From positions 310,001-374,000 of the forward strand of contig NZ_WNXZ01000001.1 of assembly GCF_009733845.1 (NCBI RefSeq): DNA of 64,000 nt. The letters run 5' to 3'. Source of the stretch: Pseudactinotalea terrae. GTDB lineage: Bacteria; Actinomycetota; Actinomycetes; Actinomycetales; Beutenbergiaceae. The notes under the pieces were generated by a model. It saw only the letters and a list, made by a program, of their open reading frames with translations. It was not told the origin of the DNA and searched no databases. Below, in pieces: positions 6,608 to 32,449 of this stretch. A program made the position numbers and the translations under genes. Position 1 is the stretch's first letter, and each line of letters begins with the position of its first letter.

Positions 6608-7027
6608 CGATCAGCCCAGACCGGTTTCCAACGCGGCCTCTTGACTTCCAGCACACAGGTCGAGGTGACGGGTCGCTGTCTTCGATCGCTCTCGGGGGTT
6701 CAGGCAGCAATGTGCCGGATGCGGGCGAGGAGGTGGGTCGGCGTGGTGACCGGGTGTCGGGTTCGAAGGGTTCCCAGATCCGAAGCGCCAACCACTGATC
6801 CTGCTCCGATGTGGAGCATCGGGGTCACGCTGCCACCATCGGTTCCGCAAGCGAGCACAGAGTATGGCGTGCTCAGCGCGCGCGCCATCGCGCTCGTCTC
6901 CGTCTAAATCTCCTAGTGCTGCCGTCCCGCCGTGTGGAGGGATGCGCTCATCCAAATCGAGAGCTGATCCGCGGGACCCGTCCCTCGGATCCCAATCACC
7001 ACCCAACAACCACTGGAAGGGGACCAC
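6608..7027. other. 420-bp gap without a recognisable gene
   Basis: No frame here reads like a conserved protein. The short frames at 6641-6907 (+) and 6700-6888 (-) have no recognised motif and no good ribosome-binding site. The last 20 bases hold the GGAAGGGGA ribosome-binding site of the GH28-like gene. The composition is slightly more even than in the flanking genes, which would suit a decayed gene remnant, but nothing identifies it. A promoter for the following genes could lie here; none is convincing. Confidence 0.4.
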
Positions 7028-8371: not shown

Positions 8372-8387
8372 CCGGAGGAGAAACCTG

Positions 8388-10874: not shown

Positions 10875-10897
10875 TTGACCGGACCAGAGGAGTCAAG

Positions 10898-11932: not shown

Positions 11933-13079
11933 GTCCACGCGGATCGCCCGCGTGGAGACGTTCACGACGTTTGGTGGCGCCCGCAACTGGGTGTTCGCCC
12001 GGGTTGAGACTGAGGGCGGCATCCATGGTTGGGGCGAAGCCTCGACTGAGCTGTGGGAGGCGACGGTTGCCACCGCGATCCGCGAGCTGGGCGCTCGGTT
12101 GGTCGGCATGGACGCGATGGCGACCGAGCAGGTATGGCAGCGTGCCACCCGCCACGGATTCTGGCGCGGGGGAGTGGTGCTCGGCTCCGCCGTGGCCGCG
12201 ATCGATCAAGCGCTGTGGGACATCCGCGGCAAGGTGCTTGGGGTACCGGTCTACACGTTACTGGGCGGGCCGACCCGGGACTGGGTGCCGACCTACCGGC
12301 ACGTGGGCATCTACACACCCGACTCGCTGGCGCAGCAGGGGCAAGCACTGGTCTCCCAGGGGGTGCGCACGATTAAGACCGGTGCCTGGGTGCTCGACAG
12401 CGCGCTGCCCGAGCGTGACCGGCTCCGCAAGGCGCAAGAACGCCTCACGGCTCTGCGGGAGGCTGTCGGCGAGGAGATCGAGATCCTGCTCGACCACCAC
12501 GGCCGCGCGGAGCTCGACGAGGCGATCCGGATGCTCCACGTGGCCGCACCGTTCCGACCACGCTGGATCGAAGAGCCCACCCCACCTGAGCGCACCGACC
12601 TGCTCGGCCCCTGGGCCCGTGAGGCACGCGGCCTGGGGATCTCGGTGGCGCTCGGTGAACGCCTGTTCTCTCGCTCGGAGTTCCGGCCGGTCCTGCAGCA
12701 GGGTCTGATCGATGTCGCACAACCCGACCTGTGTCACGCCGGTGGCATCACTGAGGTCATGAAGATCGCCGCGATGGCCGACACCTTTGGTGTCGCCCTG
12801 GCGCCGCACAACCCCGGCGGTCCGGTCTCGACCGCCGCGTCCGCACACGTGGCGATGGCGGTACCCAACCGCGTCATTCTCGAGCTGTGTCCCGACGAGC
12901 CCCGACGCAGCGAGATCTGCATCGAACCGTGGCAGCTGCAGCCCGACCGGCTGCTGGTCCCGGACCGCCCCGGACTCGGGATAGATCTGGACGTCGATGC
13001 GATCAAGGCAGTGCCAGCCAGGCAGATCAAGGTCCCCACCCAGGCGTTCCGTCACGACGGCTCCGTCGCCGACATCTGA
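11919..13079 (+). CDS. Enolase-superfamily sugar-acid dehydratase (galactonate/mannonate dehydratase-like)
   Basis: A 386-aa mandelate racemase/muconate lactonizing enzyme relative. Metal ligands are predicted at Asp192 (LLDHHGR), Glu218 (WIEEP) and Glu247 (LGER). His194 in the D-x-H motif and His297 in APHNPGGP match the acid/base pair of D-galactonate and D-mannonate dehydratases. Such enzymes turn an aldonate into its 2-keto-3-deoxy acid. The start is a TTG at 11919 with GAAGG six bases before it, and the gene overlaps the dehydrogenase by 14 bases. Which epimer it uses cannot be told from sequence, but mannonate would fit the beta-mannosidase context. Confidence 0.87.
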   Translation: MTAGRSTRIARVETFTTFGGARNWVFARVETEGGIHGWGEASTELWEATVATAIRELGARLVGMDAMATEQVWQRATRHGFWRGGVVLGSAVAAIDQALWDIRGKVLGVPVYTLLGGPTRDWVPTYRHVGIYTPDSLAQQGQALVSQGVRTIKTGAWVLDSALPERDRLRKAQERLTALREAVGEEIEILLDHHGRAELDEAIRMLHVAAPFRPRWIEEPTPPERTDLLGPWAREARGLGISVALGERLFSRSEFRPVLQQGLIDVAQPDLCHAGGITEVMKIAAMADTFGVALAPHNPGGPVSTAASAHVAMAVPNRVILELCPDEPRRSEICIEPWQLQPDRLLVPDRPGLGIDLDVDAIKAVPARQIKVPTQAFRHDGSVADI

Positions 13080-13116
13080 CGACGGACAGTGCACTGTCAG
13101 GAAAGGGCAACCCCCG

Positions 13117-13968
13117 ATGCGAGCTGAACAACTCACCGATGTCGTCACCGTCCACGGGGAGGGTCCCGCCTGGTCACCACGGTGGGCAGGCGTGAGATGG
13201 GTCGACATGCTCGACGGTTCGCTGCTCGAGCTCACCGACGACGGTCAGGTGCACCGCAGACGATTCGACAGCGACGTGGCGGCCCTTCACAGGGCACGCG
13301 GCGGCAGTGGCTGGCTGCTGGCCACTCGACACCATCTACTGCTCGCGGACTCAGACGAGCTGCATGCACCAGTCCGCCAGGTCGCCCGGTTGTGGGGGGA
13401 ACGAGCCGGGGTGCGAAGCAACGAAGGTGGGTGCGCCCCCGACGGGACCCTGTACCTGGGGTCGATGGCCGATGACGCCACACCCCGCATGGGCCAGGTC
13501 GTTCGAATCCCCCCAGATGCCACGATCACCGAGGCGATCGCGTCCACCACCATCTCCAACGGCATCGTGTGGTCACCCGACGGTGCGCGGGCCTACTTCG
13601 CGGACACCGTGCTGGACCGCTTAGATCTGTTCGACTGGTCGCCCAGCGACGGGCTGCACGCGCGACGGCCCTGGGTCCAGGTCGAATCCCCAGACGGCAT
13701 CGCTGCCGACGCCGAAGGTGGAATCTGGGTCGCGAGGTTCGGCCACGGTCTCGTGGAACGCTACGCCCCCGACGGATCGCTCTCGGAGGTGATCGAAGTC
13801 CCAGCCCGCCAAGTCACGGCGGTCGCATTCGCCGGCGACGGCCGCCGCCTGGTCATCACGACCTCGCGCTACGGCATCGAGACCTCCGCAGAACCCGGAG
13901 CTGGGGCGCTGTTCGCCGTGGCCGATGCGGGTGTCGAGGGCCTGCCCCTCCATGAGTTCGCTGGCTGA
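13117..13968 (+). CDS. SMP-30/gluconolactonase-family sugar lactonase
   Basis: A 283-aa six-bladed beta-propeller hydrolase that opens aldonolactones. Metal ligands of the family are all in place: Glu in EGPAW near residue 15, Asn in SNEGG or SNGIVWSPDG, and Asp in SPDGIAADAEGG. ATG 13117 is preceded by GGAAAGGG. The longer frame starting at 12997 lies inside the dehydratase gene and is not used. With the dehydrogenase and dehydratase just upstream it supplies the middle step of an oxidative sugar route. No signal peptide. Confidence 0.87.
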   Translation: MRAEQLTDVVTVHGEGPAWSPRWAGVRWVDMLDGSLLELTDDGQVHRRRFDSDVAALHRARGGSGWLLATRHHLLLADSDELHAPVRQVARLWGERAGVRSNEGGCAPDGTLYLGSMADDATPRMGQVVRIPPDATITEAIASTTISNGIVWSPDGARAYFADTVLDRLDLFDWSPSDGLHARRPWVQVESPDGIAADAEGGIWVARFGHGLVERYAPDGSLSEVIEVPARQVTAVAFAGDGRRLVITTSRYGIETSAEPGAGALFAVADAGVEGLPLHEFAG

Positions 13969-14480
13969 CACTCGCATGACCACCCCCGGAGGAAGTCGAT
14001 GACTAGCACGTGGACCGGGCCCGCCGTGGGGATCCTTACGGTCGATGCCGAGGCTGCCGTTCTGTGGGCGGGTGTGGCTGGCTGGTGTCCGCCCGGCTGT
14101 CGTGGTGCTTCGCGACGGTGTCCTGTTCTACCTGTTTTCGAGGTTCCGACCGTGCGGGGTCTGACCGAGGCGATCGACGGCGTCGGTGCGGTTCGCGCGG
14201 AGGCGGGCTCCGCCGTCGGGAGCCTGGGGCAGGTGTGGCACAACACCGACCCGACCGTCGGCAGGCGGATCGGTCGCCCGCCGACGTGCTGCCTGAGGAG
14301 CTCCGCGACGGGCCGGTGGACATCCCGCGCCGGGTCGACGGCGCTGGAGCTCGGTAGTCGCTGACTCCTTCTAGCGAGCGCGCCCTCGGATTCCGCAAGC
14401 TCTGCACCGACATCGCCCGGCGCGCGTGGAGATCCGTGGCTTTGACCCTCCGGCGCCCTCGATTGTGAAGCGCCGCGCGC
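13969..14480. other. Gap with a possible truncated gene start (frame 13999-14364)
   Basis: GGAGGAAG at 13987-13994 followed by ATG 13999 looks like a genuine translation start, six bases downstream, in line with the operon. The 121-aa frame that follows is rich in Cys, Arg and Ser, has no family motif I recognise, and looks like coding sequence read out of frame after its first few codons. In the neighbouring frame, 14250-14356 gives a plausible acidic stretch (PADVLPEELRDGPVDIPRRV). The simplest reading is a decayed last gene of block A. The remaining 115 bases before the convergent GH39-like gene show nothing. Confidence 0.3.
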
Positions 14481-16097
14481 CTACGTCAAGTCAACCCGCG
14501 CGAAGACGTTCGCGGGCGCGTCGGTGAGTGTGGCCCAGATCGTAGGGACGCCGTCGAACGTGGTCTCGTCGATGCTCACCGTGCCAGGAGCCGGCGTGCC
14601 ATCTGCGTAGGTCACCACTGCCTCTACCTGACCGGCGTGGTCGGCGGGCAGGTCCATCCCGACCCGGAGCGTGGCGGCGTGCTCGCCGGCGGTGCCGAAG
14701 CGAATCGTGGCCGTTTCCTCGTCGATGTGGGTCCAGGCCGTGCTGCTGCGGTCGGCGATGTCGTAGCGGGGTCGCAGCACGACGCGTCGGCGGGGCTCGG
14801 TGCGGGGTGACGGGGGAGTGCCGCCCTCGACGAGGACGACCGCTCCGCGCTCGAGGCGGAAGGTGCCCAGTTCGGTGAGCGGGTGCCAGGCGTCGTCGTT
14901 CCGTGAGTCGATGAGGGTGACGTTGGCGCGCTCGGTGGCGTGCCCGAGGTCGAGGTCGAGCTCGACGTCGGTGATCGACCGGTTCCAGACGAGAAGACTG
15001 CGGCGTGTGCCGTCGCTGGAGGCGAGCGCTCCGATGCCCTCGGGACCGGAGATCTCGACACGACGGCGGTCGATGGGCATGGTCTGGATGTGCTCGTAGG
15101 CGCGGAACAGCGGTTTGGCGTGGCCGGTGTCGGTGACCATGCCGGAGTAGTTGTCGTTGCCGCTGTCGAGGAACTGTGCCCAGCTGACGCTCGTGAGCCA
15201 CGGGGTGGCGAGAAATCTCTCGACATCGGCGGCGAAGGCAGAGGCGAGCAGGAACGTGTCCTGCAGGCCGCCTCGGGGGTAGTCGATGGTGAAGGAGTTG
15301 TACTCGTTGAGCTGGATCTCGAGCTGGGACAGCTGCGGGAACTCGGACACGATGTCGCGGACGGTGCGCAGCACAGGTCCGATACCGTAGGTGCCGTAGT
15401 GGTGGAAGGACAGGAAGTCCAGCGGCAGCGATTCGGTGGTGACGACCTTCAAGAACGCCCGGAGCCAGTGGCTGTTGGCGTTGACGGAGGCCAGTGCTGG
15501 TCCGCCGATGCGGGCGTCCGGGTCGGCAGCCCGGATCGCTCGGGACGCGCGGCGGTAGAGGTCGAGGTAGTCCTGCAGGTCGCCGGCGTAGAAGACGGGT
15601 TCCTGGGTCCGCTCGTCGCGTAGATCGGGTTCGTTGTAGATCTCGTGGTACCCGATCTCGACGCCCCGCTCGCGGGCTCCGGCGACATAGGAAGCAACGG
15701 TGTCCACCCAGATCTGGTCGCCCTCGGCCATCGTGCGCCAGTCGCCGCCAGCCGGCCGGGCGGCCTGGGGGACATAGGAGTAGGACCAGTGCGGCCGCAC
15801 CCCCACCTCCGTCAGGAACCGGGCGATGGCGTCGGTCTCCTCGAAGGCGAAGGAGGGGGCGCCGTCGTCGTCGATCGTGACGACCTCTTCCTGCCAGGGC
15901 ATCCACTCGGCACCCCATCCCAGATCGATGCGCAGGTGCTCGGCTCCGGCGCGCACGAAGTAACCCCGGTCGCGTTGGTAAGCCAGCAGCGTGACGAGCC
16001 CGGAGTTGAACAGGGCGATCTTGTCGTGGGAGATGGGGTAGTCGGCCAGGGTGGTGAAGTCTGTGGTGACGCGCGCGGTCCTGCGGACGGGCTTCAT
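14481..16097 (-). CDS. GH39-like glycosidase (beta-xylosidase fold), cytoplasmic
   Basis: A 538-aa clan GH-A glycosidase resembling family 39. Acid/base Glu156 is in EIYNEPD and the nucleophile candidate Glu265 in QLNEYNSF; a spacing of 109 residues is close to that of GH39 beta-xylosidases. A TIM barrel (about 20-360) is followed by a beta-sandwich (360-538). No signal peptide is present. Start ATG 16097 was preferred because the longer frame, open to 16877, runs through the permease gene; AAAGG lies 11 bases upstream. It is the last gene of a sugar-transport operon, so it probably hydrolyses the imported glycoside. Members of this clan act on xylosides, iduronides or arabinosides, and sequence alone does not decide. 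Confidence 0.75.
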   Translation of the reverse strand: MKPVRRTARVTTDFTTLADYPISHDKIALFNSGLVTLLAYQRDRGYFVRAGAEHLRIDLGWGAEWMPWQEEVVTIDDDGAPSFAFEETDAIARFLTEVGVRPHWSYSYVPQAARPAGGDWRTMAEGDQIWVDTVASYVAGARERGVEIGYHEIYNEPDLRDERTQEPVFYAGDLQDYLDLYRRASRAIRAADPDARIGGPALASVNANSHWLRAFLKVVTTESLPLDFLSFHHYGTYGIGPVLRTVRDIVSEFPQLSQLEIQLNEYNSFTIDYPRGGLQDTFLLASAFAADVERFLATPWLTSVSWAQFLDSGNDNYSGMVTDTGHAKPLFRAYEHIQTMPIDRRRVEISGPEGIGALASSDGTRRSLLVWNRSITDVELDLDLGHATERANVTLIDSRNDDAWHPLTELGTFRLERGAVVLVEGGTPPSPRTEPRRRVVLRPRYDIADRSSTAWTHIDEETATIRFGTAGEHAATLRVGMDLPADHAGQVEAVVTYADGTPAPGTVSIDETTFDGVPTIWATLTDAPANVFARVDLT

Positions 16098-16129
16098 GAA
16101 GTGTTCGAGCCTTTCGGTTGCTGGGCGGG

Positions 16130-17032
16130 TCAGTTCGCGAGGCCGCTGGTGACGATGCCGCGGATGATCCAGCGTTGGAAGATCAGGTAGATCACGATGA
16201 TCGGGAAGGACACGAGCGTGACACCAGCCATGATCTCGCCGTACTGGCTGTTGTACCGCCCGACGAGCGACTGCAGCGCCTGGGTCACGACCCAGCTGTC
16301 TTGATCGGAGAGGTAGATCGACTGGACGTAGAAGCTGTTCCACAGCTGCACGAACGTGAGCAGCCCCACCGCCAGGAACGCCGGACCCGAGAGCGGGGTG
16401 ATGACGGCGAAGAACGTGCGGAACGCGCCGGCCCCGTCGACGGCCGCGGCGTCCTCGAGCTCGCGCGGCAGGGTCAGATAGAACTGCCGGAAAAAGAAGG
16501 TGGCGATCGCGGAGCCGAAGAGCAGGGGCACGATGATCGGCAGGGGAGTGTTGATCCAGTCGAGCTGGCGAAAGACGACGTACTGCGGGATCAGGGTGAC
16601 CTGCCCCGGCACCATCAGGGTGAGCAGCAGGACCGAGAGAAGCGCACCTCGTCCGGGGAACCGGAATCGTGCCAGCGCATATCCCGCGAGCGCGCTGGAG
16701 AACAGGGTGCCGGCGGTGCCGAACACGACGATCACCGCGGTGTTGGCGAAGTAGCGCAGCAAGTCCGGCAGGATCGCGAACAGGTTCTGGTAGTGCTCGA
16801 ACGTGATCGGGTGGGGGAGGAGCTGGTCCGCGGCGAACATGTTCTCGTCGGTGCGCAGCGACATCGATGCCGCCCACACGACCGGGAAGATGTAGGCCAG
16901 CACGATGACGATCGTGACGGCGTGGTAGCCCACGCTGCGGGTCTGGGCGCGCCGCCGAGCACCGGACATCCTGCGGATCGGGGCGTCGGGATGTGCTCGG
17001 GTCGGGGCTTGCGCGGAGGTGAGTGCGCTCAT
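16130..17032 (-). CDS. Carbohydrate ABC transporter permease, MalG type
   Basis: A 300-aa inner-membrane protein of the CUT1 class with about six transmembrane helices after a 35-residue cytoplasmic N-terminus. The EAA loop is seen in PRELEDAAAVDGAGAFRTFF. The typical MalG segment NTAVIVVFGTAGTLFSSALAGY marks the helix-two region. ATG 17032 overlaps the stop of the partner permease by four bases (ATGA). It forms the transport channel with that partner. No ATPase gene is present in this operon, as is usual for CUT1 systems served by a shared MsiK-type ATPase encoded elsewhere. Confidence 0.93.
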   Translation of the reverse strand: MSALTSAQAPTRAHPDAPIRRMSGARRRAQTRSVGYHAVTIVIVLAYIFPVVWAASMSLRTDENMFAADQLLPHPITFEHYQNLFAILPDLLRYFANTAVIVVFGTAGTLFSSALAGYALARFRFPGRGALLSVLLLTLMVPGQVTLIPQYVVFRQLDWINTPLPIIVPLLFGSAIATFFFRQFYLTLPRELEDAAAVDGAGAFRTFFAVITPLSGPAFLAVGLLTFVQLWNSFYVQSIYLSDQDSWVVTQALQSLVGRYNSQYGEIMAGVTLVSFPIIVIYLIFQRWIIRGIVTSGLAN

Positions 17033-21367: not shown

Positions 21368-23407
21368 TCATCCTCCGCTGGGCGCGTCGCGGAGCTCGTC
21401 CCGAGGCAAGGCGAGCAGGTTAAGGGCGACGACGTCGGGCGGGATGGCCATGCCACCGTAGAGACCGGTGGTCGAGTTGTGCGTGTCGGGCAGGCACCCA
21501 TCGAACTGCCCAGCTCGGTATGCGGCGAGAGTGGCGGGCAGGTTGTGGGGCCGCCAGTCGTCCTGGGCGGAGTCCAGCAGCCACCGCACGGCAGCCCAGG
21601 TGATTCCCGCGTGGTAGCGCGGCCAGTCGATCTGCACGTCCACCGCCGCCAGGTCGATGCCGAGCTGGTGAGCCTGCCCGAATGTCTCCAGCACTTCCCA
21701 CTGCACGTGGTCGCGGACCCAGTTGGCGTAGTACCAGTCGGAGGAGCACAGGCACGGCTTGGTGTTGTAGAGCATCGGACGGTGCTTCGGCTGCCACAGG
21801 TGGGTGAAGACCAGCAGGCTGCGCAGCCAGTGACGAGCAGCGAACCGGTCCTCCTCGCGACCCCACAGCTGCCACGCCAGCGTGTGCGCCAGCGCGCCGT
21901 AGCCGGCGGCGAGCAGGTTCGGTGCCTGCAGCGGGGTCTCCCAGTAGTCCCCGCCGGCCGGTCGGGTGAAGCGGCGGGCGGCGTCGAGCGCGGCACGCGC
22001 AGGGCGGCTGAACTCCTCGGGCGCGAGCGCGGCCGCGCGCACAAGCAGCAGTGCGGGCTTGGCCGTGAGCCCGAGCGCGGTGTCGCCCGGCTGCCCCATC
22101 GGCTCCACCAGGTCGCGGGCCACGACGAAGTCGTCTTTGCTGCGGTGCATCCCGTCGGGTTCGAAGGCGAATCCCCCGTCCTCGCGCTGGTGCGCGAGGA
22201 GCTCCTGCGCGGCGCCGATCAGCTCCTCGTCGGGTTCGACCCCCTCGCCTGTGCCGAGTCCGAGGTCCTCGAGTCGGGCACGCAGGGCAGTGGCTCCTGT
22301 CGAGGACGGCGAAGCCTGCGACAAGTACTCGTGTGCGAACCGCGGTGCGACCGGGCGTATGTCCCCTGGGGTCTGCCCCAGCCCGAACCCTTCGGGGCCG
22401 TGGGACAGCGTCGTCGCGTAGGTGTGCGCGATGCGGTCCAGGGCCTCATTCCGCGGCCAACGCGGTGGCGACGGCTCTGGAAGTCCGTGCTCGGTCACCC
22501 AGTCGACGACGGCGTCGAGCCCGGATCCGTTGCCGGTTCGCAGGACCGCGGTCAGCTCGATGCGTTGCCCGCGATGCAGCTCGTAAGTTTCGGCGGCCGT
22601 CCAGTCCCCACCCGTGCTCGCCTCCGGGATCATGAGGCCGATTAGACTCGAGTCGCTGCGCTCCACGAAGTTCGGCGAGGCCAGCACCGGTTGCGCCCGC
22701 TGGCGGGGCATGGTGAACCAGCCGGTGACCACCGCGTCCGGGCGCCACTGCAACGACACCCACCGGCCACCGTGTGAGACCGCCATCACCGGGACGGCGA
22801 CGGAGTCCACCGGCGGCGTCGCGCGCATCGCCCAGGGGTCGCGGAACCAGTCGTCGCCCGAGGTCCACTCTCGATCGGTGGCCCACTCGACGCCGGGGAG
22901 AATAACGTCGTCACGTTGGGCGCCGAACGACCCTGCACCCACCCGCACCCATGGCAGCCGCAGGTAGCTGACGGGCACGTCGAGCTGGGACTCCAGCGAC
23001 CAGGACAGCCAGAACCCGCCTGTCCGATGAGCCGCCTCGATCCGCACCGTACCGCGCAGCACCGGGCCCCGCAGCGCGGCACCGACCCACGGCTCGAACG
23101 ACGATCCGGACAGCGCGTCGGCCAGGGTCACCGACTCCACCGTGAGCTCCAGGGCGGGCTGGCCGTCGCGTGTGGAGGTCGGGACGCACGCGCCGGCCTC
23201 CAGACGCATCGGGACCGCTTGACCTTGCACCATGAGCTCGCCGAGGTGGTCCAGCACGACTAACGGCTCACCGTCGGCGTCGAGCAGCTCGCCCCACCCC
23301 CATCCTGTCCGTCGGTCGAAGATCGCCAGCGTCGTGTTGCCGGAGCGGATCTCGTGACTGCTCCCGCCCCAGCTCGCGCGCCGATAGCTGGGGGTTCTCG
23401 TGGGCAT
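21368..23407 (-). CDS. Unrecognised 679-aa protein in the rhamnoside locus; possible glycosidase or lyase
   Basis: I recognise no family. The N-terminal 300 residues are rich in aromatic and beta-prone segments (GGFWLSWSLESQ, RLPWVRVGAGS) and look like a beta-sandwich. Residues 310-679 are mostly helical, with repeated aromatic/His-rich motifs such as LYNTKPCLCSSDWYYANW, DWPRYHAGITWAAVRWL and CLPDTHNSTTGLYGG. A beta-sandwich plus alpha/alpha-toroid layout occurs in several glycosidases and polysaccharide lyases. No signal peptide, so cytoplasmic. ATG 23407 is preceded by CGGAGATCC. It is 40 bases after the SBP gene, same strand, so probably co-transcribed. Catalytic activity is a guess from layout and context. 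Confidence 0.8.
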   Translation of the reverse strand: MPTRTPSYRRASWGGSSHEIRSGNTTLAIFDRRTGWGWGELLDADGEPLVVLDHLGELMVQGQAVPMRLEAGACVPTSTRDGQPALELTVESVTLADALSGSSFEPWVGAALRGPVLRGTVRIEAAHRTGGFWLSWSLESQLDVPVSYLRLPWVRVGAGSFGAQRDDVILPGVEWATDREWTSGDDWFRDPWAMRATPPVDSVAVPVMAVSHGGRWVSLQWRPDAVVTGWFTMPRQRAQPVLASPNFVERSDSSLIGLMIPEASTGGDWTAAETYELHRGQRIELTAVLRTGNGSGLDAVVDWVTEHGLPEPSPPRWPRNEALDRIAHTYATTLSHGPEGFGLGQTPGDIRPVAPRFAHEYLSQASPSSTGATALRARLEDLGLGTGEGVEPDEELIGAAQELLAHQREDGGFAFEPDGMHRSKDDFVVARDLVEPMGQPGDTALGLTAKPALLLVRAAALAPEEFSRPARAALDAARRFTRPAGGDYWETPLQAPNLLAAGYGALAHTLAWQLWGREEDRFAARHWLRSLLVFTHLWQPKHRPMLYNTKPCLCSSDWYYANWVRDHVQWEVLETFGQAHQLGIDLAAVDVQIDWPRYHAGITWAAVRWLLDSAQDDWRPHNLPATLAAYRAGQFDGCLPDTHNSTTGLYGGMAIPPDVVALNLLALPRDELRDAPSGG

Positions 23408-23447: not shown

Positions 23448-24914
23448 TCAGCCGACCTCGGACGTCCAGTCGTCGGTCCAGCCGTTGTCCTCGACCTGCT
23501 CGGCGACCGACTCGTCCCACAGCGCCTGCAGCTCGGCGAGCTGGTCCTCGAGGGTCTGGTCTCCGATGAGGAAACCGTCGATGACGGGCTGCCCGGCGGC
23601 GGAGGCGGGCACGGTCCCGAAGTCGCCCATCAGCATTGGCGAGGTCCAGTCCTCGTCCGCCGTCAGGCCCTCGAGCCCGGGAGCGGGTTCCGCGTCGACG
23701 ATCGCCGGAATGCCGCCGCTGGCGTCCAGGAACGGCTGGATGCCCTCGGGTGAGCTCGCGAACTGCAGGAACGCGATCGCTGCCTCGAGCTCGGGCCCCT
23801 CGGTGGTCGCCGAGATCATGTACGAGGTGCCGCCGGCACCGAGCCCGGACTGGGCGCCGAACTCGGTGGACAGCGGCGAGTCCTCCTGGGTGACGGTCCC
23901 GAACGGCATCGTCCCGTACTCGAAGTCGAGCACCCCGTCGGCTGCCGCGAGGTTGGATCCCAGCGCCATCGCGGCGTTCCCCGCCGCGAAGTCTGCGGTG
24001 TTCACGAACCCACCCGCGGCTGGCGCAATACCCGACCAGTTGGTGGTCGCGCACCGATCCATGAACTCCTTGGCCAGCCGCAGCGTCTCGGCAACCTCCG
24101 GCGTCTCGACGGCGGAGTACAAGCCGAGCGCCATGGCGCGCGCCTCCGACTTCGCGGCCAGCTGCGTCGTCGCGGCGCCCTCGGAGCCGTCACCCGCGTA
24201 GACGTTCCACTCGTCGAAGTAGCGGCTCATCAGCATGTTGGAGATGAAGTTCGTGATCTGGCCCTGACCCTGTAGCGAGGAGTCCATCGCGAACCCGTCG
24301 TAGCCGGCTGCGCGCAGGTCGTCGCACGCGCTCAAGTAGTCCCCATAGGTGGTCAGCGGCGGCTCGATCCCCACCTCGGCGAAGATCTCTGCGTTGTAGA
24401 AGATGCCGAGGCCGATGAGGTTGAACGGGACCCACTCCAGGTTCCCTTGCCCGTTCACCGAGCCGGCGTCGTATCCAAAGAACTCGTGGTCGAAGACGTC
24501 GTACCAACGCTCGTTGCCCTCGACGAACGGGTTGGGCTGCTCCATGTACTCGTCAAGAGCGACGACCGTCTGAGGGTCGTGCGGCGGCTGGTTGAACACG
24601 AGCGCGGGGGCCGTGCCTGCCGCGAGCTGGGTGGAGATCGTCTGCGAGAACTCGCTGATCGGCAGCACCGTGGTCTGCACCTCGACGCCGGTCTCCTCTT
24701 GAAAACGCGCCGTCAGGTCCTCCCAGAACGGGCCGAACGACTGCGGGTCGGCGTTCCATTGGTTGGGTCCGGCGAGCTGGATCGTCACTCCGTCCAGGTC
24801 GCCGGACCCATCGGCTGCGGGTGGGTCTTCGCCGCTGCATCCAGCGACCAGCAGCAGTCCTGCCGCCGCGAGCGCACCCACTGCGCGCCCCGTTGTTGTC
24901 GTCGTTCCTCGCAT
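23448..24914 (-). CDS. Sugar ABC transporter substrate-binding lipoprotein, copy 1
   Basis: A 488-aa family-1 binding protein with a lipoprotein signal (ALAAAGLLLVAGC, Cys about residue 25). It is clearly paralogous to the protein at 30980-32449. Both share segments such as LAGPNQWN, TTVLP, TQLAAGTAP, VFNQ, NPF-EGN-RW, FVPFN/WVPFN and EIFAEVG/DIFAEVG, and they are almost the same length. ATG 24914 follows GAGGAAGG. No permease genes adjoin it on this strand; it is followed by the 679-aa unknown gene. It may feed the permease pair at 29.0-30.9 kb with a second ligand. Longer start to 24992 rejected: no ribosome-binding site and it would precede the signal. Confidence 0.9.
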   Translation of the reverse strand: MRGTTTTTGRAVGALAAAGLLLVAGCSGEDPPAADGSGDLDGVTIQLAGPNQWNADPQSFGPFWEDLTARFQEETGVEVQTTVLPISEFSQTISTQLAAGTAPALVFNQPPHDPQTVVALDEYMEQPNPFVEGNERWYDVFDHEFFGYDAGSVNGQGNLEWVPFNLIGLGIFYNAEIFAEVGIEPPLTTYGDYLSACDDLRAAGYDGFAMDSSLQGQGQITNFISNMLMSRYFDEWNVYAGDGSEGAATTQLAAKSEARAMALGLYSAVETPEVAETLRLAKEFMDRCATTNWSGIAPAAGGFVNTADFAAGNAAMALGSNLAAADGVLDFEYGTMPFGTVTQEDSPLSTEFGAQSGLGAGGTSYMISATTEGPELEAAIAFLQFASSPEGIQPFLDASGGIPAIVDAEPAPGLEGLTADEDWTSPMLMGDFGTVPASAAGQPVIDGFLIGDQTLEDQLAELQALWDESVAEQVEDNGWTDDWTSEVG

Positions 24915-24962
24915 GGTTGGACCTTCCTCTCGGCATTGAGTGTGGGGGTGAGTGCTCGGTGG

Positions 24963-25021: not shown

Positions 25022-25798
25022 TCACGGCAGCCGCCGTTCGAGCTCGACCACTGTGCCGGACAGGGCACGGTGGATGTCCGCGAGCAGTGCGTCCGTCAGT
25101 CGCGGGGTCGGCACGGTGACCGACATCGCCGCGACGACCTGCCCGCTCGGATCCCGTACCGGCATGGCCACGCACTTGCACCCGATGACGAACTCCTCGT
25201 TGTCCTCGCCGTAGCCACGAGCCCGGATCAGGTCGACGTCGGTCATCACCTCAAGGAGGCTGGTGCGGGTCTGTTCGGTGAACCGCTCGAGATCGACTCC
25301 GTCCAGCCGGTGGGCGATCTCCTCGTCGGGAAGACCCGACAGCAGCACCTTGCCGAGTCCGGTCGCGTGAGCTGGCAACCGGCGGCCGACAGCGCTGGCG
25401 AGCCGCATCGGGTGCGGGGAGTTGACGACAGCCAGGTACACGTTGTGACGGCCCTCCAGCACCGAGAGCTGGGTGGTCTCGCCCACCTCGTCGACGAGCG
25501 CCCGCATCAACGGCTGCGCCAGCTCTGTGAGGTCGTCGGTGCGGCGGAACGCCTGGGCTACCGCCCACAACCGCGGTCCCAGCCGGTAGGAGCGGGCCTG
25601 CTCGTCGTGCTCGAGAAACCCGCCGTCCACCATGGTCGCGAGCAGCTGGTGGCCAGAGGAGTTGGGCAGGTCCAGATCACGCACGATCTGGGCGAAGGGC
25701 GCAGGGCCGACCTCCGCTAGGTACTCCAGCACGAGCATCAGCCGGCGCGCGGACTTCACGGACGTCACCTCGCCGTCGAGGGAAGCCGCCTTCACCAT
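25022..25798 (-). CDS. IclR-family transcriptional regulator
   Basis: A 258-aa regulator. The N-terminal winged helix-turn-helix covers about residues 14-70 (SARRLMLVLEYLAEVGPAPF, then LPNSSGHQLLATMVDGGFLE). The C-terminal effector domain shows the IclR features LPAHATGLGKVLLSGLPDEE and GYGEDNEEFVIGCKCVAMPV. ATG 25798 is used. It lies between SBP copy 1 (same strand, downstream) and the divergent L-rhamnonate dehydratase operon. It probably controls both, with a sugar-derived acid as a plausible effector. Paired inverted repeats flank the gene. Confidence 0.92.
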   Translation of the reverse strand: MVKAASLDGEVTSVKSARRLMLVLEYLAEVGPAPFAQIVRDLDLPNSSGHQLLATMVDGGFLEHDEQARSYRLGPRLWAVAQAFRRTDDLTELAQPLMRALVDEVGETTQLSVLEGRHNVYLAVVNSPHPMRLASAVGRRLPAHATGLGKVLLSGLPDEEIAHRLDGVDLERFTEQTRTSLLEVMTDVDLIRARGYGEDNEEFVIGCKCVAMPVRDPSGQVVAAMSVTVPTPRLTDALLADIHRALSGTVVELERRLP

Positions 25799-25846: not shown

Positions 25847-25863
25847 CTTTCATATCCATGAAG
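25847..25863. promoter_or_regulatory. Inverted repeat in the iclR - rhmD divergent gap
   Basis: TTCAT (25849-25853) and ATGAA (25858-25862) are separated by ATCC; the flanking CTT/GA partly extends the symmetry. It lies 49 bases upstream of the IclR start and 88 bases before the dehydratase start. A likely operator, given the similar half sites at 24963-24976. Confidence 0.45.
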
Positions 25864-25950
25864 ACACTTGCAAGATGGCGAACTCTGTACAAGACTTCCG
25901 TTCGCCCCGGTGGTCGTCCGGGCGCACTCGACGGCGAGAGGGAGCATGGC

Positions 25951-27183
25951 GTGCGGGAACGGCACAGAGTTACCGAGGTCCGAGCGTGGGTACGTCCGGA
26001 CCAGCCGGCCTCCTCCGAACCAGTGACCCAACCCGACACCGCGCCGTCGGAACTGCCTGACGTGATCGCCGACTGGCGCCGCAGCAAGGTCGCGAACCCG
26101 ATGACCCGTTACCCCGAGTTTCGGGACAGCCGTTCAGCGGCGATCGGCCGCGACTCCGGTCGCACGGTCGTGGTGGAGGTCGAGAGTGCGTCGGGGCACG
26201 TCGGTGTCGGGATCACCAACGGCGGCCAGGTCGCGGCCGCGATCGTCGAGCTGCACCTGGCGGACATGGTCGAGGGACAGGACCCGGCGGCGCACGAGCG
26301 CATCTGGGACCGCATGTTCCACAGCACCCTGCTCTACGGCCGCAAGGGCGTGGTGTTGCACGCGATCTCGGCGGTCGACCTGGCCGTCTGGGACCTGCAT
26401 GGGCAGATCACCGGCGAACCGGTCTACAGCCTGCTCGGCGGCCCCGTGCACGAGTCGCTGCCGGCGTACGCGACCGGTCCCGACGTGGGGGCCATGGCCC
26501 GGCTGGGGTTCGCAGGCGGGAAGCTTCCGCTGACGTGGGCGCCCGTCGAGGGTGAGGACGGGTTCCGCCGCAACGTCGAGAGGGCCGAGCAGGCACGCGC
26601 CGCGGCAGGCCCGGATATGCCGCTCTACTACGACTGCTGGATGTCTCTGGACGTCGACTACGCCACCCGGTTGGCGTGGGCGATCGAGCCGCTCGGGTTC
26701 CGCTGGCTGGAGGAGCCGCTGCCGCCGGACGACTATGCGGGCCACGCCGAGCTCCGGCGGCGAATGCCGCCGCGGATGATGCTCACCACGGGCGAGCACG
26801 AGTACACCGCTGCCGGGTTCCGGCTGCTGTGCGAGAACGGCGTCGACGTGCTCCAGCCCGACCCCGCCTGGTGCGGCGGACTGACCGAGCTTCGGCGGAT
26901 CGCGGCCGTCGCCCGCAGCTACGGCAAGCGGGTGCTGCCGCACGTCGGGGGCGCCTACTCCTACCACTTCCTTGCCGCTTACCCCGAGGCGTTCCTCACC
27001 GAGTTCCCGCTCGTGACCGGCCGGTGCGACACCCCGGGCCCGTTGCACGGCGACCTCCTGACCGGCGAGCCGCTGCCCGTCGACGGCCGCATCCACGTGT
27101 CCGACGCCCCCGGCTTCGGCCTGCGGCTGAACCCCGACGCGGCCCTGGTTCGAGGCCTGCGCCGGGAAGGAGTGCCGACGTGA
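25951..27183 (+). CDS. rhmD: L-rhamnonate dehydratase
   Basis: A 410-aa enolase-superfamily enzyme that dehydrates L-rhamnonate to 2-keto-3-deoxy-L-rhamnonate. Predicted metal ligands are Asp228 (in YYDCWMSLDVDYA), Glu254 (WLEEPLPP) and Glu282 (TGEHEYT), with His331 in PHVGGAYSYH. From memory these correspond closely to Asp226, Glu252, Glu280 and His329 of the E. coli enzyme. The YATGP, GGKLPLTW, QPDPAWCGGLTE and PVDGRIHVSDAPGFG segments are also typical. GTG 25951 was chosen because GAGAGGGAG precedes it by six bases; the frame is open to 25858. It overlaps the next gene by four bases and leads the rhamnose operon. Confidence 0.9.
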   Translation: MRERHRVTEVRAWVRPDQPASSEPVTQPDTAPSELPDVIADWRRSKVANPMTRYPEFRDSRSAAIGRDSGRTVVVEVESASGHVGVGITNGGQVAAAIVELHLADMVEGQDPAAHERIWDRMFHSTLLYGRKGVVLHAISAVDLAVWDLHGQITGEPVYSLLGGPVHESLPAYATGPDVGAMARLGFAGGKLPLTWAPVEGEDGFRRNVERAEQARAAAGPDMPLYYDCWMSLDVDYATRLAWAIEPLGFRWLEEPLPPDDYAGHAELRRRMPPRMMLTTGEHEYTAAGFRLLCENGVDVLQPDPAWCGGLTELRRIAAVARSYGKRVLPHVGGAYSYHFLAAYPEAFLTEFPLVTGRCDTPGPLHGDLLTGEPLPVDGRIHVSDAPGFGLRLNPDAALVRGLRREGVPT

Positions 27184-28268
27184 GGTCAGCACGGGTCGCG
27201 ATGGTCGGCGCGGGCTGGTGGGCCCACACGGCGCATCTCCCGGCTCTCGCGGCGCACCCCTCGGTCAGCCTCGTCGCCGTCGTCGACCGCGACCGCGCCC
27301 GCGCCGAGCAGGGCGCTGCCTCCTTCGGCGTCGAGCGGACCGAGACCGATCTCACCGCACTGCTGCAAGAGTCGGCCGTGGACGCGGTCGTCGTTGCCAC
27401 GCCACACACGACCCACGCCGCACTCGCCGAACAGACCCTGAGCAGCGGCGTCTCGGCACTGGTGGAGAAGCCGATGACCACAGACGCCGACGATGCCTGG
27501 CGCCTGGTCGACCTCGCCCGCAAGAACGGCCTGGTGCTGTCGGTGGGGGTGCCTTACCTGCACGCACCGACGGCACACCGGGTCGTCGCCGCGGTCCGCA
27601 CGCAGATCGGGGAGCTGGTGAGCGTCGCGGGTGAGTTCTCCTCCGGCGCCGGCAGCCTCTTCGCCGTCACCGACGACGGCGACTCGGCGCACGACCCGAC
27701 CGTGCCGCACGGCACCACCTACTCCGACCCATCCCTGTCCGGAGGCGGGCAGGGCCACACCCAGCTGAGTCATCTGGTCACCACGATGGTGGCGACCACA
27801 GGTCTGCAGGCCGTCGAGGTGAGCGCGTTCATGAGCTACCGGAAGCTTCGGGTCGATCTCGTGGACGCGTTAGCGTTCCGGCTCGAGAACGGGGCGCTCG
27901 GAACCCTCGGCTCCACCGGCACCACTCCACCGGGAGTCCCGGCGCGCCAGCTGCTGCGCTACCACGGGACCGCCGGCATGGTCGAGCACGACATCCTGCG
28001 CGGCACCGCCGTCGTGCACCGCGAGGGTGGCGACAGCACCATCATCGAGCCAGACCCCACCCGGGCGGTCTACCAGCTCCAGGCACCTGTCGACGCGTTC
28101 GTGCGCGTGCTGGTCGAGGGCTGCGCGGACCCGGCACCCGGCGCGGTCGGCGCTGCGTCGGCGTCGTTGCTGGACGCCGCCTATCGCGCCGCGACGAGCG
28201 GCAACCGCGAGCAGGTCCATCAGGGGGCGCTGCACATGATGCCGGAGGAGCTGGCCGATGCCCGCTGA
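27180..28268 (+). CDS. Gfo/Idh/MocA-family sugar oxidoreductase
   Basis: A 362-aa NAD(P)-dependent oxidoreductase. The N-terminal Rossmann motif is VGAGWWAHTAHLPAL, and the family EKP motif is ALVEKPMTTDADDAW (Lys about residue 99). GGGQGHTQLSH in the C-terminal domain resembles the substrate-binding GG-x5-H segment. GTG 27180 overlaps the rhmD stop (GTGA), so the two are translationally coupled; the longer frame to 26676 is antisense-like and lies inside rhmD. It may oxidise the sugar or a methylated or keto derivative. Family members vary widely in substrate. Confidence 0.88.
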   Translation: MRSARVAMVGAGWWAHTAHLPALAAHPSVSLVAVVDRDRARAEQGAASFGVERTETDLTALLQESAVDAVVVATPHTTHAALAEQTLSSGVSALVEKPMTTDADDAWRLVDLARKNGLVLSVGVPYLHAPTAHRVVAAVRTQIGELVSVAGEFSSGAGSLFAVTDDGDSAHDPTVPHGTTYSDPSLSGGGQGHTQLSHLVTTMVATTGLQAVEVSAFMSYRKLRVDLVDALAFRLENGALGTLGSTGTTPPGVPARQLLRYHGTAGMVEHDILRGTAVVHREGGDSTIIEPDPTRAVYQLQAPVDAFVRVLVEGCADPAPGAVGAASASLLDAAYRAATSGNREQVHQGALHMMPEELADAR

Positions 28269-29013
28269 GGATCTCGCCGTCGTCGTCGGAGCGGCCCAGG
28301 GCATCGGCGAGGCCATCGCCCGGCGCCTGGCCCGTGGCCGCCAGCTGGTCGTGGCCGACCTCAACGGCGACGGCGCCGCGTCGCTAGCGGCGGACCTCAC
28401 CGCCCACGGGCACGCGTGCCGCTCGCTGCAGGTCGACATCGGCGACCCGGGGTCGGTCGCCGCGCTGGTCGAGGCGACGGCGGGCGCCGGTCAGGTCGCC
28501 ATCGCCGCCGGCATCTTCGCCGCGTCGCCGTCGATGGATGTGACCCCTGACGAGCTTCACCGGATCCTGGCCGTCAATCTCGTGGGCGTCTACGACGTGG
28601 CCCGCTCCTACGCGCGCACGATGGCCGCCCGTGGCGGCGGCGCCATCTGCGCCGTCGGGTCGATCGCCGCCAGGATGCCGCGCATGCGGCAGGCCGCGTA
28701 CAGCGCATCCAAGGCCGGGATGCGGCAGGCGCTGCGCGTGCTGGGCATGGAGGTGCTCCCGCTCGGGGTCCGGATCACCCTGGTCGCGCCGGGTCCGACT
28801 GCCACGCCGATGATGCAGGACTTGGCGGGCGACCACCACGGCATCCCGCTCGCGACCGGAGACCTCGCCGCGATGCGCCCACGGATCCCGGACGGGCGCG
28901 TCGGCACGCCCGACGACGTCGCCGCGGCCGTGCAGTTCCTGCTCTCGGCCGACGCCGCGCACGTGGCGCTGCACGACCTGTACGTCGACGGCGGTGAGTC
29001 GCTGGGGATGTGA
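28258..29013 (+). CDS. Short-chain dehydrogenase/reductase
   Basis: A 251-aa classical SDR. The cofactor motif is VGAAQGIG (residues 10-17), the catalytic Ser is in VGSIAARM and Tyr/Lys in YSASKAG, and the C-terminus ends DLYVDGGESLGM. Overall it recalls 2,3-dihydroxybenzoate dehydrogenase-like SDRs, but the context argues for a sugar substrate. SDRs serve as L-rhamnose 1-dehydrogenase or as 2-keto-3-deoxy-L-rhamnonate 4-dehydrogenase in non-phosphorylating rhamnose pathways. ATG 28258 overlaps the previous gene by 11 bases. Confidence 0.87.
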   Translation: MPAEDLAVVVGAAQGIGEAIARRLARGRQLVVADLNGDGAASLAADLTAHGHACRSLQVDIGDPGSVAALVEATAGAGQVAIAAGIFAASPSMDVTPDELHRILAVNLVGVYDVARSYARTMAARGGGAICAVGSIAARMPRMRQAAYSASKAGMRQALRVLGMEVLPLGVRITLVAPGPTATPMMQDLAGDHHGIPLATGDLAAMRPRIPDGRVGTPDDVAAAVQFLLSADAAHVALHDLYVDGGESLGM

Positions 29014-29053
29014 AAGCCATGACCATCGCACGAGACGAGAAAGGAACGCCGCC

Positions 29054-29989
29054 ATGACGAGCACCGGCACCTCCGCGCTCACCCCCGCGGCCCCCAGACG
29101 GGCCCGACGCCGGGTGCCGTGGCTGGTATACCTGGCGTTACTGCCACTCGTGGCCGTCCTCGGGGTATTCGCGTACTACCCGGCAGCCAGCGGGATCTGG
29201 CTGTCCTTCCAAGACGGCGTCCCAGCGATCGGCATGGAGTTCGTAGGACTGGACAACTACCGGACCATGCTGGACGACGCCCTGTTCTGGCGCTCGTTCC
29301 GCAACCTGGGGGTCATCTTCCTCTTCGGGATCACCGTCGGCTGGCTGCTGCCGATGCTCTCTGCCGAGCTGCTCATCAGCCTGCGCAGCGCGCGGCTGCA
29401 GTTCCTCTTCCGCACGCTGCTCATTGCCCCCATGGCCTTCCCCGGAGTGGTCCTGGTGCTGCTGTGGGCCGCGATGTACCAACCGAACGACGGTCTCATC
29501 AACCGGTTCCTGGAGTCAGTGGGGCTCGGTGCGCTGCAACAGAACTGGCTGGGCGACCCCGACCTGGCGCTGCTGGCGCTGCTCTTCATCGGGTTCCCGT
29601 TCGTCGCCGGGCTGCCATTCCTCGTCTTCCTGACCGCGTTGCAGAACATCCCGGTGGAGATCTTCGAGGCATGCGCGCTCGACGGTTGCGGCCGAATCCG
29701 CCGGCTGTTCCGCATCGACCTGCCGCTGATGGCGAGCCAGATCAAGCTGCTGATCTTCCTCACCACCATCGGCGTGCTGCAGTACGGGTTCGCCGCCTAC
29801 CTGACCACCGGCGGCGGCCCGAACGGTGCCACCGAGGTGCCCGTGCTGCGGATGCTGGCCGAGGCCTTCCAAGGCTCGGAGTGGGGGTACGCGGCGGCGT
29901 TGTCCACCGTCCTGTTCATCCTCGCGCTGGCGCTGAGCGTCGTGATCTTCCGCGTCCGGAAGGAGGACCCCGGTGTCCGTCCCATCTGA
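29054..29989 (+). CDS. Carbohydrate ABC transporter permease, MalF type
   Basis: A 311-aa CUT1 permease with six transmembrane helices; the first is VPWLVYLALLPLVAVLGVFA. The EAA loop is VEIFEACALDGCGRIRRLF. ATG 29054 follows GAAAGGAACG; the longer frame from 28994 overlaps the SDR stop and has no better site. It overlaps the partner permease by 17 bases. It transports the ligand of one or both paralogous binding proteins in this locus. As in the other CUT1 operon, no ATPase is encoded nearby. Confidence 0.92.
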   Translation: MTSTGTSALTPAAPRRARRRVPWLVYLALLPLVAVLGVFAYYPAASGIWLSFQDGVPAIGMEFVGLDNYRTMLDDALFWRSFRNLGVIFLFGITVGWLLPMLSAELLISLRSARLQFLFRTLLIAPMAFPGVVLVLLWAAMYQPNDGLINRFLESVGLGALQQNWLGDPDLALLALLFIGFPFVAGLPFLVFLTALQNIPVEIFEACALDGCGRIRRLFRIDLPLMASQIKLLIFLTTIGVLQYGFAAYLTTGGGPNGATEVPVLRMLAEAFQGSEWGYAAALSTVLFILALALSVVIFRVRKEDPGVRPI

Positions 29990-30920
29990 CGCTCTCGCAT
30001 CCGGCCAGGGCGCCGCCGGTGCGCCAGCTGCTGGAGCCGTCGTCTCGAGGTCAGCACCCGTCCACGTGACAGGGCGCGCACGCGGGCCCGGCTCGGGCCG
30101 GGCGGGGCGGCTCAGCCAGCTCGGGATCGTCGTCACGCTGTCGGTGATCGCGTTCGTGGGGCTGTTCCCGTTCCTGTTCATGCTGGTGACGTCCTTCAAG
30201 ACGAACGAGCAGTACTTCACCTCGTTCTGGCGACCCGCCTGGCCGCCGCACCTGGCGAACTACGTGGACGCCTTCACCCAGATCGCCCCCTACTTCGTCA
30301 CCACCGTGGTGGTCGCGGCGGGCTCGATCGTGGGCGCGCTCGCGCTGTGCACGGTCGCCGCTTTCGTGATGGCGCGCTATCAGTTCCCCGGACGGCGGCT
30401 GCTGTTCGGCGCCATCGCGCTGCTGCTGATGGTCCCGGGGATCGCCAGCCTGATCCCCAGCTTCCTACTCATGCAGCAGCTCGACCTGCTCAACACTCGG
30501 CTGGTGCTCATGATCCCGCACGTGGTGGGTGGTGCGGTGCTCGGGACGCTGCTGATGAAGACCTTCGTCGAGCAGCTCCCGCAGGAGTTCTTCGACGCCG
30601 CGCTGGTCGACGGCGCCTCCGGGACGCGGATGTTCGGCTCCATCGTGCTGCCGCTGTCGCTGCCTGTCGTCGGGACGATCGCCCTGGTCACGGTCATCGG
30701 AGTCTGGAACGACTTCTTCTGGCCGCTGCTGACGGTCAGCCAGAACGAGCTGCGGACGATCTCCGTAGGCCTGGAGTTCTTCAACGGCCAGAACGGCACC
30801 AACTACGGGCCACTGTTCGCCGGGTACGTCCTCGCGAGCCTGCCCCTGCTGCTGCTGTTCACCTTCCTGTCCAAGCACTTCCTGGCGGGCCTGTCCGGCG
30901 GCCTGACCGGGAGCAAATGA
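29973..30920 (+). CDS. Carbohydrate ABC transporter permease, MalG type
   Basis: A 315-aa CUT1 permease with a 45-residue Ala/Gly-rich N-terminal tail and six helices. The EAA loop is PQEFFDAALVDGASGTRMF, and WNDFFWPLL is typical of MalG proteins. GTG 29973 has AAGGAGG (29959-29966) seven bases before it, inside the end of the partner gene. Followed after 59 bases by SBP copy 2. Confidence 0.92.
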   Translation: MSVPSDALASGQGAAGAPAAGAVVSRSAPVHVTGRARGPGSGRAGRLSQLGIVVTLSVIAFVGLFPFLFMLVTSFKTNEQYFTSFWRPAWPPHLANYVDAFTQIAPYFVTTVVVAAGSIVGALALCTVAAFVMARYQFPGRRLLFGAIALLLMVPGIASLIPSFLLMQQLDLLNTRLVLMIPHVVGGAVLGTLLMKTFVEQLPQEFFDAALVDGASGTRMFGSIVLPLSLPVVGTIALVTVIGVWNDFFWPLLTVSQNELRTISVGLEFFNGQNGTNYGPLFAGYVLASLPLLLLFTFLSKHFLAGLSGGLTGSK

Positions 30921-30979
30921 CGCCACCGACTTTCACCACCCCGCTGCGGCGCTCGCCGCCCGAAACGAGAAGAGACGAG

Positions 30980-32449
30980 ATGACGACGACGACATCGCGC
31001 GTGCGCCTCATCGCCCTGGCCACCGCCGGCGCCCTGACGCTGGCCGCCTGCGGCGGCGGCGGCGATACAGACGAAGGCGGCGAGAACGGTGACTCCCTGG
31101 CGGGCACCACCATCACCCTCGCCGGCCCCAACCAGTGGAACAGCGACCCAGCCAGTTTCGGACCTGCCTGGGAAGCGCTGGTCGCGGCGTTCGAGGCCGA
31201 GACCGGAGTCATCGTGGAGACGACGGTGCTCCCCGTCGACCAGTTCGCGCAGACGCTGTCCACACAGCTGGCGGCGGGTACCGCGCCGGAACTGGTCTTC
31301 AACCAGGCCCCGCACGAGCCGGAGCTGGTCACCCCGCTGAACGAGTACCTAGAAGCGCCGAACCCCTTCATCGAAGGCAACACACGCTGGTGGGACGCCT
31401 TCGAGGCCGACAAGTACGGGCCCGGCGTCGCCGCCTCGGTCAACGCCGACGGCGACACCGAGTTCGTGCCGTTCAACCTCGTGGCGACCGGCGTCTTCGT
31501 CAACGCCGACATCTTCGCCGAGGTCGGTCTGGAGGCGCCGATCGAGACCTGGACCGAGTTCATCGACGGCTGCGGCGCGCTGCGGGAGGCGGGGTACACC
31601 CCGTTCGCGATGGACAACGGTGACCTCGGGCTGGGCTGGACTGTCCAGACCATTTCGAACATGCTGTTCGCCAAGTACTACGACGAGCTGAACGTCTACG
31701 CACCCGACGGCAGCGAGGGCAGCAGCCAGCAGCTGATCGCCAAGGACTGGGCCAGGGCGATCCTCAGCGGCGAGCTCGACGCCACGACGACCCCGGAGGC
31801 ACGCGCGAGCGTCGAGCTGCTCGGCGAGTTCTACGACGCCTGCGTGACCGAGAACTGGTCCGGCGTGACCCCCTCCGGCGGTGGCGCCGTCGTCGGGCTG
31901 GACGAGTTCGCCTCGGGCGGCGCGGCGATGGCTTGGGGCGTGAACTTCGGCTACTCCGCCCTCGAGAACGTCGAGTTCGAGCTCCTGAGCATGCCATTCC
32001 CCACCATCGACGAAGAAGCCCACCCGCTCTCCACCGGGTTCGAGGCCCAGTACGGCTCATCCACCGGCGGAACCAGCTACATGGTCCCGGCCACCACCGA
32101 AGGTGTCGAGCTGGACGCAGCGATCGCGTTCCTGCAGTTCGTCTCGGCACCCGAGCACATCGAGCCGTGGCTGCAGGAGACCGGAGGCATCCCCGCCGTC
32201 GTCGACGCCGAGGCCGCGCCGTCGGTCGCTGGCTTCGCCGAAGGCGCGTGGGGCGAGCAGATGCTCACCGGTGGGATGCCCGCAGGTCCGCCCGGGACCA
32301 CGATCCAGAGCGTCTACGACGGCTACCTGCTCGGCCAGCGCGACCTCGACGCGCAGCTCGCGCACCTGCAGGAGCAGTGGCTGGCTTCGCAACGCACCGC
32401 CGTGGAGGACAACGACTGGGAGTCCGAGCCGTGGGCGGCAGGCCCGTGA
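30980..32449 (+). CDS. Sugar ABC transporter substrate-binding lipoprotein, copy 2
   Basis: A 489-aa family-1 binding protein. The lipoprotein signal is LIALATAGALTLAAC (Cys about residue 23) followed by a Gly/Glu/Asp linker. It is a paralogue of the protein at 23448-24914, one residue longer, with shared blocks throughout including GGTSYMI/VPATTEG and AIAFLQF. ATG 30980 is preceded by AAGAGACGAG. The longer frame from 30347 lies within the MalG gene and is a shadow. It sits directly behind the permease pair and is the cognate binding protein by position. Confidence 0.92.
   Translation: MTTTTSRVRLIALATAGALTLAACGGGGDTDEGGENGDSLAGTTITLAGPNQWNSDPASFGPAWEALVAAFEAETGVIVETTVLPVDQFAQTLSTQLAAGTAPELVFNQAPHEPELVTPLNEYLEAPNPFIEGNTRWWDAFEADKYGPGVAASVNADGDTEFVPFNLVATGVFVNADIFAEVGLEAPIETWTEFIDGCGALREAGYTPFAMDNGDLGLGWTVQTISNMLFAKYYDELNVYAPDGSEGSSQQLIAKDWARAILSGELDATTTPEARASVELLGEFYDACVTENWSGVTPSGGGAVVGLDEFASGGAAMAWGVNFGYSALENVEFELLSMPFPTIDEEAHPLSTGFEAQYGSSTGGTSYMVPATTEGVELDAAIAFLQFVSAPEHIEPWLQETGGIPAVVDAEAAPSVAGFAEGAWGEQMLTGGMPAGPPGTTIQSVYDGYLLGQRDLDAQLAHLQEQWLASQRTAVEDNDWESEPWAAGP

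Follow-up and report, generated by a model that had tools for sequence, protein, structure and literature searches.

The described enzymes against which the protein studied here is best compared include two polysaccharide lyases. The PL26 exo-rhamnogalacturonan lyase PcRGLX (5xqo) has a rhamnose-containing glycan as its substrate. The PL27 L-rhamnose-α-1,4-D-glucuronate lyase BACCELL_00875 (PDB structure 5no8) is built from a β-sandwich and an (α/α)6 barrel, and releases rhamnose (PMC8377490). Our target gene lies in a 64,000 nt stretch of the Pseudactinotalea terrae genome (assembly GCF_009733845.1, contig NZ_WNXZ01000001.1, positions 310,001 to 374,000), referred to in full as the window. 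The first-pass annotation of this DNA had proposed that the gene encodes an undescribed glycosidase or lyase. We consider that the product is probably an exo-type glycoside hydrolase of an unnamed two-domain carbohydrate-active family, acting on imported rhamnose-containing oligosaccharides, and put the probability of this reading at roughly 0.55. The gene and its neighbours are as follows.

21368-23407, minus strand: target gene, 679 aa; residues 1-309 predicted β-super-sandwich, residues 310-669 predicted α/α toroid
23448-24917, minus strand: SBP1, ABC sugar-binding protein (SBP_bac_8), lying upstream of the target in one operon
25022-25798, minus strand: IclR-family regulator, with 55% identity to the IclR adjoining the Jiangella homologues
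25858-27183, plus strand: L-rhamnonate dehydratase (NCBIfam PRK15440, 423 bits, cut-off 393)
27168-28268, plus strand: Gfo/Idh/MocA oxidoreductase
28258-29013, plus strand: SDR oxidoreductase
28994-30920, plus strand: two ABC sugar permeases (MalF/MalG-like)
30956-32449, plus strand: SBP2, 54% identical to SBP1, start estimated
32539-35541, plus strand: DUF5722 protein (PF18989, E 1e-123), 5' end provisional
35591-36457, plus strand: Amidohydro_2 protein, possibly a sugar lactonase
36492-39650, plus strand: GH78 α-L-rhamnosidase

The target ORF starts at the ATG at position 23407, with no earlier in-frame start, and is preceded by a GGAG ribosome-binding site 7 nt 5' of the ATG; its GC3 is 0.87. 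Only 40 bp separate the SBP1 stop codon from the target start, in keeping with the earlier proposal that the two genes are co-transcribed. The α-L-rhamnosidase and rhamnonate dehydratase reported nearby by the first-pass annotation were both recovered, the latter above its cut-off. The lactonase named alongside them stood only as an Amidohydro_2 protein, its match to L-fucono-1,5-lactonase being sub-threshold (44 bits, cut-off 400). The locus encodes two sugar-binding proteins, SBP1 being paired with the target gene and SBP2 with the permeases. A second carbohydrate cluster occupies positions 5636-16877 of the window, and encodes GH26, GH28, GH2 and GH39 proteins and a galactonate dehydratase-like enolase (above cut-off). 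The host genome (4.76 Mb) carries the target gene in single copy and, elsewhere, encodes a PL26-family protein (G000:C8:37882-38940, PF21345, E 3.5e-143).

Within the order, 396 genomes were searched and yielded one divergent relative, L005 in genome G585 (1236 aa, 26% identity), whose region also encodes an SBP 52% identical to SBP1. A two-sequence profile of the target and L005, scanned against 85,000 species genomes, found relatives at 60 loci, mostly full length and with 39-56% identity. The carriers are Jiangella, Paenibacillus, Bacillus, Clostridia and Bacteroidota, as well as Chloroflexi, Deinococcales, Hydrogenedentota, Latescibacterota and Planctomycetes. Identity to the Jiangella proteins is 54-56% over the full length, and since the relatives align end to end across phyla, the target is a real gene and not a chance ORF. 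The family is rare in Actinomycetota, where the profile matched 2 of the 396 sampled genomes; one of these matches (L123, G339) was weak and was rejected as a thioredoxin-type protein. L003 (G556) was also rejected, as a weak 65-residue match within an ORF of doubtful coding status. With few exceptions the gene is single copy in the 30 carrier genomes searched, and a plasmid collection searched with three family members gave no match. The homologue on one MAG contig (L044:4765-7103) is frameshifted near its 3' end, and hence split.

In the family tree, the window protein forms a long branch, sister to Jiangella. At about 27 near-invariant positions its residue is not that of the family, and Jiangella keeps the consensus at about 16 of these, including the sites of the window substitutions H494Q, E484A and H503Y. 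On the strength of these sequence changes, the specificity of the window protein may differ from that of the rest of the family. The long branch also explains why single-sequence patterns from this protein miss relatives: scanned alone against genome contigs it found none, though relatives exist.

No Pfam or NCBIfam model matched the target at E≤10 and no PDB sequence matched it better than E 0.5, which bears out the initial remark that no family motif is recognisable. Scanned individually, the 53 relatives gave no significant Pfam or NCBIfam match, and their combined profile had no significant match among PDB sequences, with nothing of the 5no8 (PL27) type at E≤10, although 5no8 is present in the PDB structure set. 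Three sub-significant matches were rejected as assignments: C5-epim_C (4 of 53 relatives, best E 0.012), Pec_lyase (2 of 53) and GH127 (PF07944; one member, E 0.089). All three are helical-toroid families, and the matches may reflect a shared fold. The PcRGLX Pfam models of PL26 were absent at E≤10 for the target and absent among the matches of its relatives. Bac_rhamnosid6H of GH78 and the Pfam families of GH88/GH105 and GH76 were likewise unmatched by the target and the 53 relatives. Profile-profile comparison with hhalign gave a probability of 0.2% against eight PL26 proteins, similar to unrelated controls (GH43, GH92 and others), and 0.5% against the neighbouring GH78 proteins (cluster 4). 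Two further candidates taken from the literature were dropped, GH145 because its fold is a β-propeller, and ulvan dehydratase because the sequence gives no tie to the target.

The family appears unnamed, without a Pfam or NCBIfam model or a PDB sequence match, and may already hold a CAZy number. Pfam and NCBIfam lag behind CAZy, and an already numbered, perhaps characterized, CAZy family lacking such a model or a PDB entry is a conceivable but rather doubtful home for the target. The failure of the family profile to match any PDB sequence argues against it, as does a search of the available literature on neighbouring themes, which turned up no such family, a weak test for a family with no searchable name.

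AlphaFold2, run with the 53-sequence alignment, produced a confident model (pLDDT 86.4, pTM 0.90; single-sequence pLDDT 36). Strands extend to residue 293 and the C-terminal half is helical, matching the β-sandwich and helical-toroid halves predicted at first pass. Model confidence is low at residues 184-196 and 556-564, both among the most conserved segments. In the model, the N-terminal domain resembles a galactose-mutarotase-like β-super-sandwich, followed by an α/α toroid. The best Foldseek matches in the PDB (E 1e-6 to 1e-4, whole-length TM-scores low at 0.19-0.30) were mostly carbohydrate-active proteins with a super-sandwich and/or toroid, from PL26, GH129-type, GH36, GH94, GH116 and PL27; the nearest folds are those of carbohydrate-active enzymes and not a non-enzymatic fold. 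VIA, in whose list absence does not exclude a family, aligned the N-domain with GalN-ase 8x1b (Z 18.6), PL26 (Z 18.0) and GH174 (Z 17.0), and matched the C-domain to GH76 (Z 16.1) and to unsaturated glucuronyl hydrolase (Z 15.4). The toroid alignments to GH88/GH105 and GH76 (Z 15-16) span about 270-285 residues, in a fold common to many families. Since toroid and super-sandwich are shared by hydrolases, lyases and phosphorylases, the architecture gives the kind of protein and not its reaction.

Across the 53 sequences, 106 positions are invariant, and all are retained in the window copy. Five long loops hold 57 of them, against 27 expected by length, and the short turns at 383-392, 462 and 516-517 hold none. 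Mapped onto the model, the invariant residues concentrate in the long loops between toroid helix pairs, the outcome of the conservation mapping that the first-pass annotation had suggested. Such loops usually line the substrate pocket of an α/α toroid. The conserved segments are listed below.

Residues 178-206, 405-444, 478-497, 535-568 and 609-657: five long conserved loops
21431-22197, minus strand: segment encoding the conserved toroid loops A-D (residues about 405-657)
Residues 424-427: toroid loop A, KDDF
WETPL and E490: toroid loop B
Residues 555-571: toroid loop C, SSDWYYANWVRDHVQWE
D641: toroid loop D

A rival reading, a binding or regulatory protein on a carbohydrate-active scaffold without catalysis, draws on the long branch of the window copy and on its substituted near-invariant sites, such as H494Q, E484A and H503Y. 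The 106 positions invariant across phyla, many of them acids on pocket-side loops and every one kept in the window copy, make a non-catalytic function highly improbable.

A sister family of eight long proteins (L005 and L116-L122; 887-1617 aa), likewise unnamed, matches the target-family profile at E 1e-30 to 1e-67 and shares WE490xP, QW569-570 and D641 with it, but carries extra N-terminal parts. All eight retain P483, W489, E490 and P492, while D641, D590, Q569 and W570 each occur in seven. KDDF 424-427 and the greater part of 555-567 belong specifically to the target family; four of the sister proteins lack the KDDF stretch, and seven lack the SSDWY aspartate. The invariance of E490 even in this divergent sister family makes it the best catalytic candidate, with D641 second; both assignments derive from sequence comparison. 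The sister proteins are long and multidomain (L005:8184-11894, L116:8303-12328, L117:8617-12663 and L118-L122), and several adjoin GH78-like proteins or sulfatases. A Pfam scan of L005 found no domain.

The main alternative is that the target is a poly- or oligosaccharide lyase, cleaving a rhamnose-uronic acid bond by β-elimination like PL27 or PL26. PL26 5xqo tops the Foldseek matches (E 1.6e-6), PL27 5no8 is also matched (E 6.4e-5) and is of about equal length, and both families show that elimination is possible on a similar two-domain architecture; the invariant H567, H621, R565, Y547 and K550 could serve a lyase. We nevertheless regard a lyase as unlikely. Neither the profile search against PDB sequences nor the profile-profile comparison revealed a sequence relation, and what the target has in common with its sister family is chiefly acids, Trp and Gln (E490, D641, D590, Q569-W570), and not lyase-like His, Arg or Lys. 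Furthermore, no GH88/GH105 unsaturated-uronide hydrolase was recognized among the recurrent neighbours scanned, which were part of all neighbours. We prefer hydrolysis over elimination because the residues common to target and sister families are acids and not the His, Tyr, Arg or Lys of lyases, and because unsaturated-uronide hydrolases were not recognized in those recurrent neighbours; this preference is an argument, not a demonstration.

By a simple hydrophobicity scan of family members, the Bacteroidota, Hydrogenedentota, Planctomycetes and Latescibacterota proteins carry N-terminal hydrophobic signal segments without a lipobox. Members from Firmicutes, Actinomycetota, Chloroflexi and Deinococcales have no signal segment and begin directly at the domain, with a ribosome-binding site; the target itself has no signal peptide. 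This pattern fits an enzyme that would act after uptake, in the periplasm of diderms or in the cytoplasm. Phosphorylases of the GH65/GH94 type are usually cytoplasmic, and the cytoplasmic Gram-positive members would suit a phosphorylase or other transferring enzyme with their super-sandwich and toroid layout; Foldseek also matched cellobiose, chitobiose and cellobionic acid phosphorylases (E 4.5e-6 to 1e-5). We judge this very unlikely, given the signal peptides of the Bacteroidota members and the non-phosphorylative rhamnose route encoded nearby, which proceeds through L-rhamnonate dehydratase.

A rhamnose setting is met again in distant bacteria. The window cluster and Jiangella have in common an SBP (54-57%), an IclR regulator (55%), a permease (60-63%), L-rhamnonate dehydratase (60-63%) and DUF5722 (50-60%). 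At 34 of the 60 loci whose DNA was examined, GH78, GH106, a DUF5722/GH99-like protein or rhamnonate dehydratase is present; such cluster counts are approximate, having been obtained by BLAST and single linkage clustering with families named by Pfam. By strict Pfam counts, at least 10 of 30 genomes carry GH78 or GH106 within 10 kb of the target, where copy number would predict 1.9. DUF5722 is the strongest recurrent genomic partner, found within 10 kb in 8 of 30 genomes (0.16 expected) and within 20 kb in 11 (0.30 expected). It is carried, usually in one or two copies, by 24 of the 30 target-carrying genomes and by none of 14 control genomes, and looks like a partner enzyme of the same pathway. 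The neighbour P-values treat genomes as independent; because the genomes share ancestry and genes for degradation tend to cluster anyway, they overstate the case. Rhamnose genes at other loci include an L-rhamnose mutarotase above cut-off (L040), and below-cut-off best matches to L-rhamnose 1-dehydrogenase (L016) and 2,4-didehydro-3-deoxy-L-rhamnonate hydrolase (L057). Within the stretches of DNA examined, about half of the loci show no rhamnosidase, DUF5722 or rhamnonate dehydratase, which counts against the rhamnose reading.

Other neighbourhoods were also observed. In rumen Clostridia (L037, L046, L047, L049, L050, L056 and L061), the target gene directly precedes a homoserine O-succinyltransferase-like gene (metA) and housekeeping genes, in a conserved order with no recognizable sugar cluster. 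In six loci (L040:6996-9896, L010:12013-14898, L013, L023, L045 and L059) the target is adjoined by a protein of about 960 aa, whose L040 representative had no match in a Pfam scan.

On the reading that we prefer, an exo-acting glycoside hydrolase, the neighbouring ABC transporter would bring rhamnose-containing oligosaccharides into the cytoplasm, where the enzyme would cleave them exo-wise; in Bacteroidota and other diderms, cleavage would take place in the periplasm. We place the putative pocket on the toroid face that bears the long conserved loops, with the N-domain loop 178-206 as its cap; acid residues of the pocket loops would provide catalysis, Glu490 foremost and then Asp641. Rhamnose released by the enzyme could enter the L-rhamnonate dehydratase pathway encoded alongside. 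The earlier idea of an O-methylated substrate found no support. The suggestion of an undescribed glycosidase or lyase is supported in part, by the carbohydrate-active folds, the recurrent rhamnose setting and the lack of a Pfam, NCBIfam or PDB family match; its novelty stands less firmly, given CAZy families that have no Pfam or PDB entry.

We see even odds that the target family and DUF5722 form an undescribed two-enzyme route for dismantling a rhamnose-rich glycan, from Actinomycetota to Bacteroidota, with the target founding a new glycoside hydrolase or lyase class. The family has about a hundred residues invariant across many phyla and sits in rhamnoside-degrading clusters, yet annotation based on Pfam and NCBIfam has no name for it. 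Assigning the reaction would name both the target family and DUF5722, and would show which rhamnose-rich glycan is common to soil, rumen, gut and marine bacteria.

Amongst known systems, GH36/GH129-type enzymes (8x1b, 5opq, 4fnr) share the N-terminal super-sandwich (Z 15-19), but the N-domain accounts for most of these matches, and the catalytic domain of such enzymes is a TIM barrel, not a toroid. The GH88/GH105 and GH76 hydrolases align with the target C-domain (residues 310-673), but are single-domain toroids for which no sequence relation to the target was found. PL26 5xqo gives a VIA N-domain match (residues 133-501, Z 17.8), but its whole-length Foldseek TM-score is 0.26; PL26 chains, at about 880-900 aa, are longer than the target and show no sequence match. 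The PL27 enzyme 5no8, which the family profile did not match by sequence at E≤10, is like the target in length (669 aa, compared with 679 aa); its Foldseek match has a TM-score of only 0.29.
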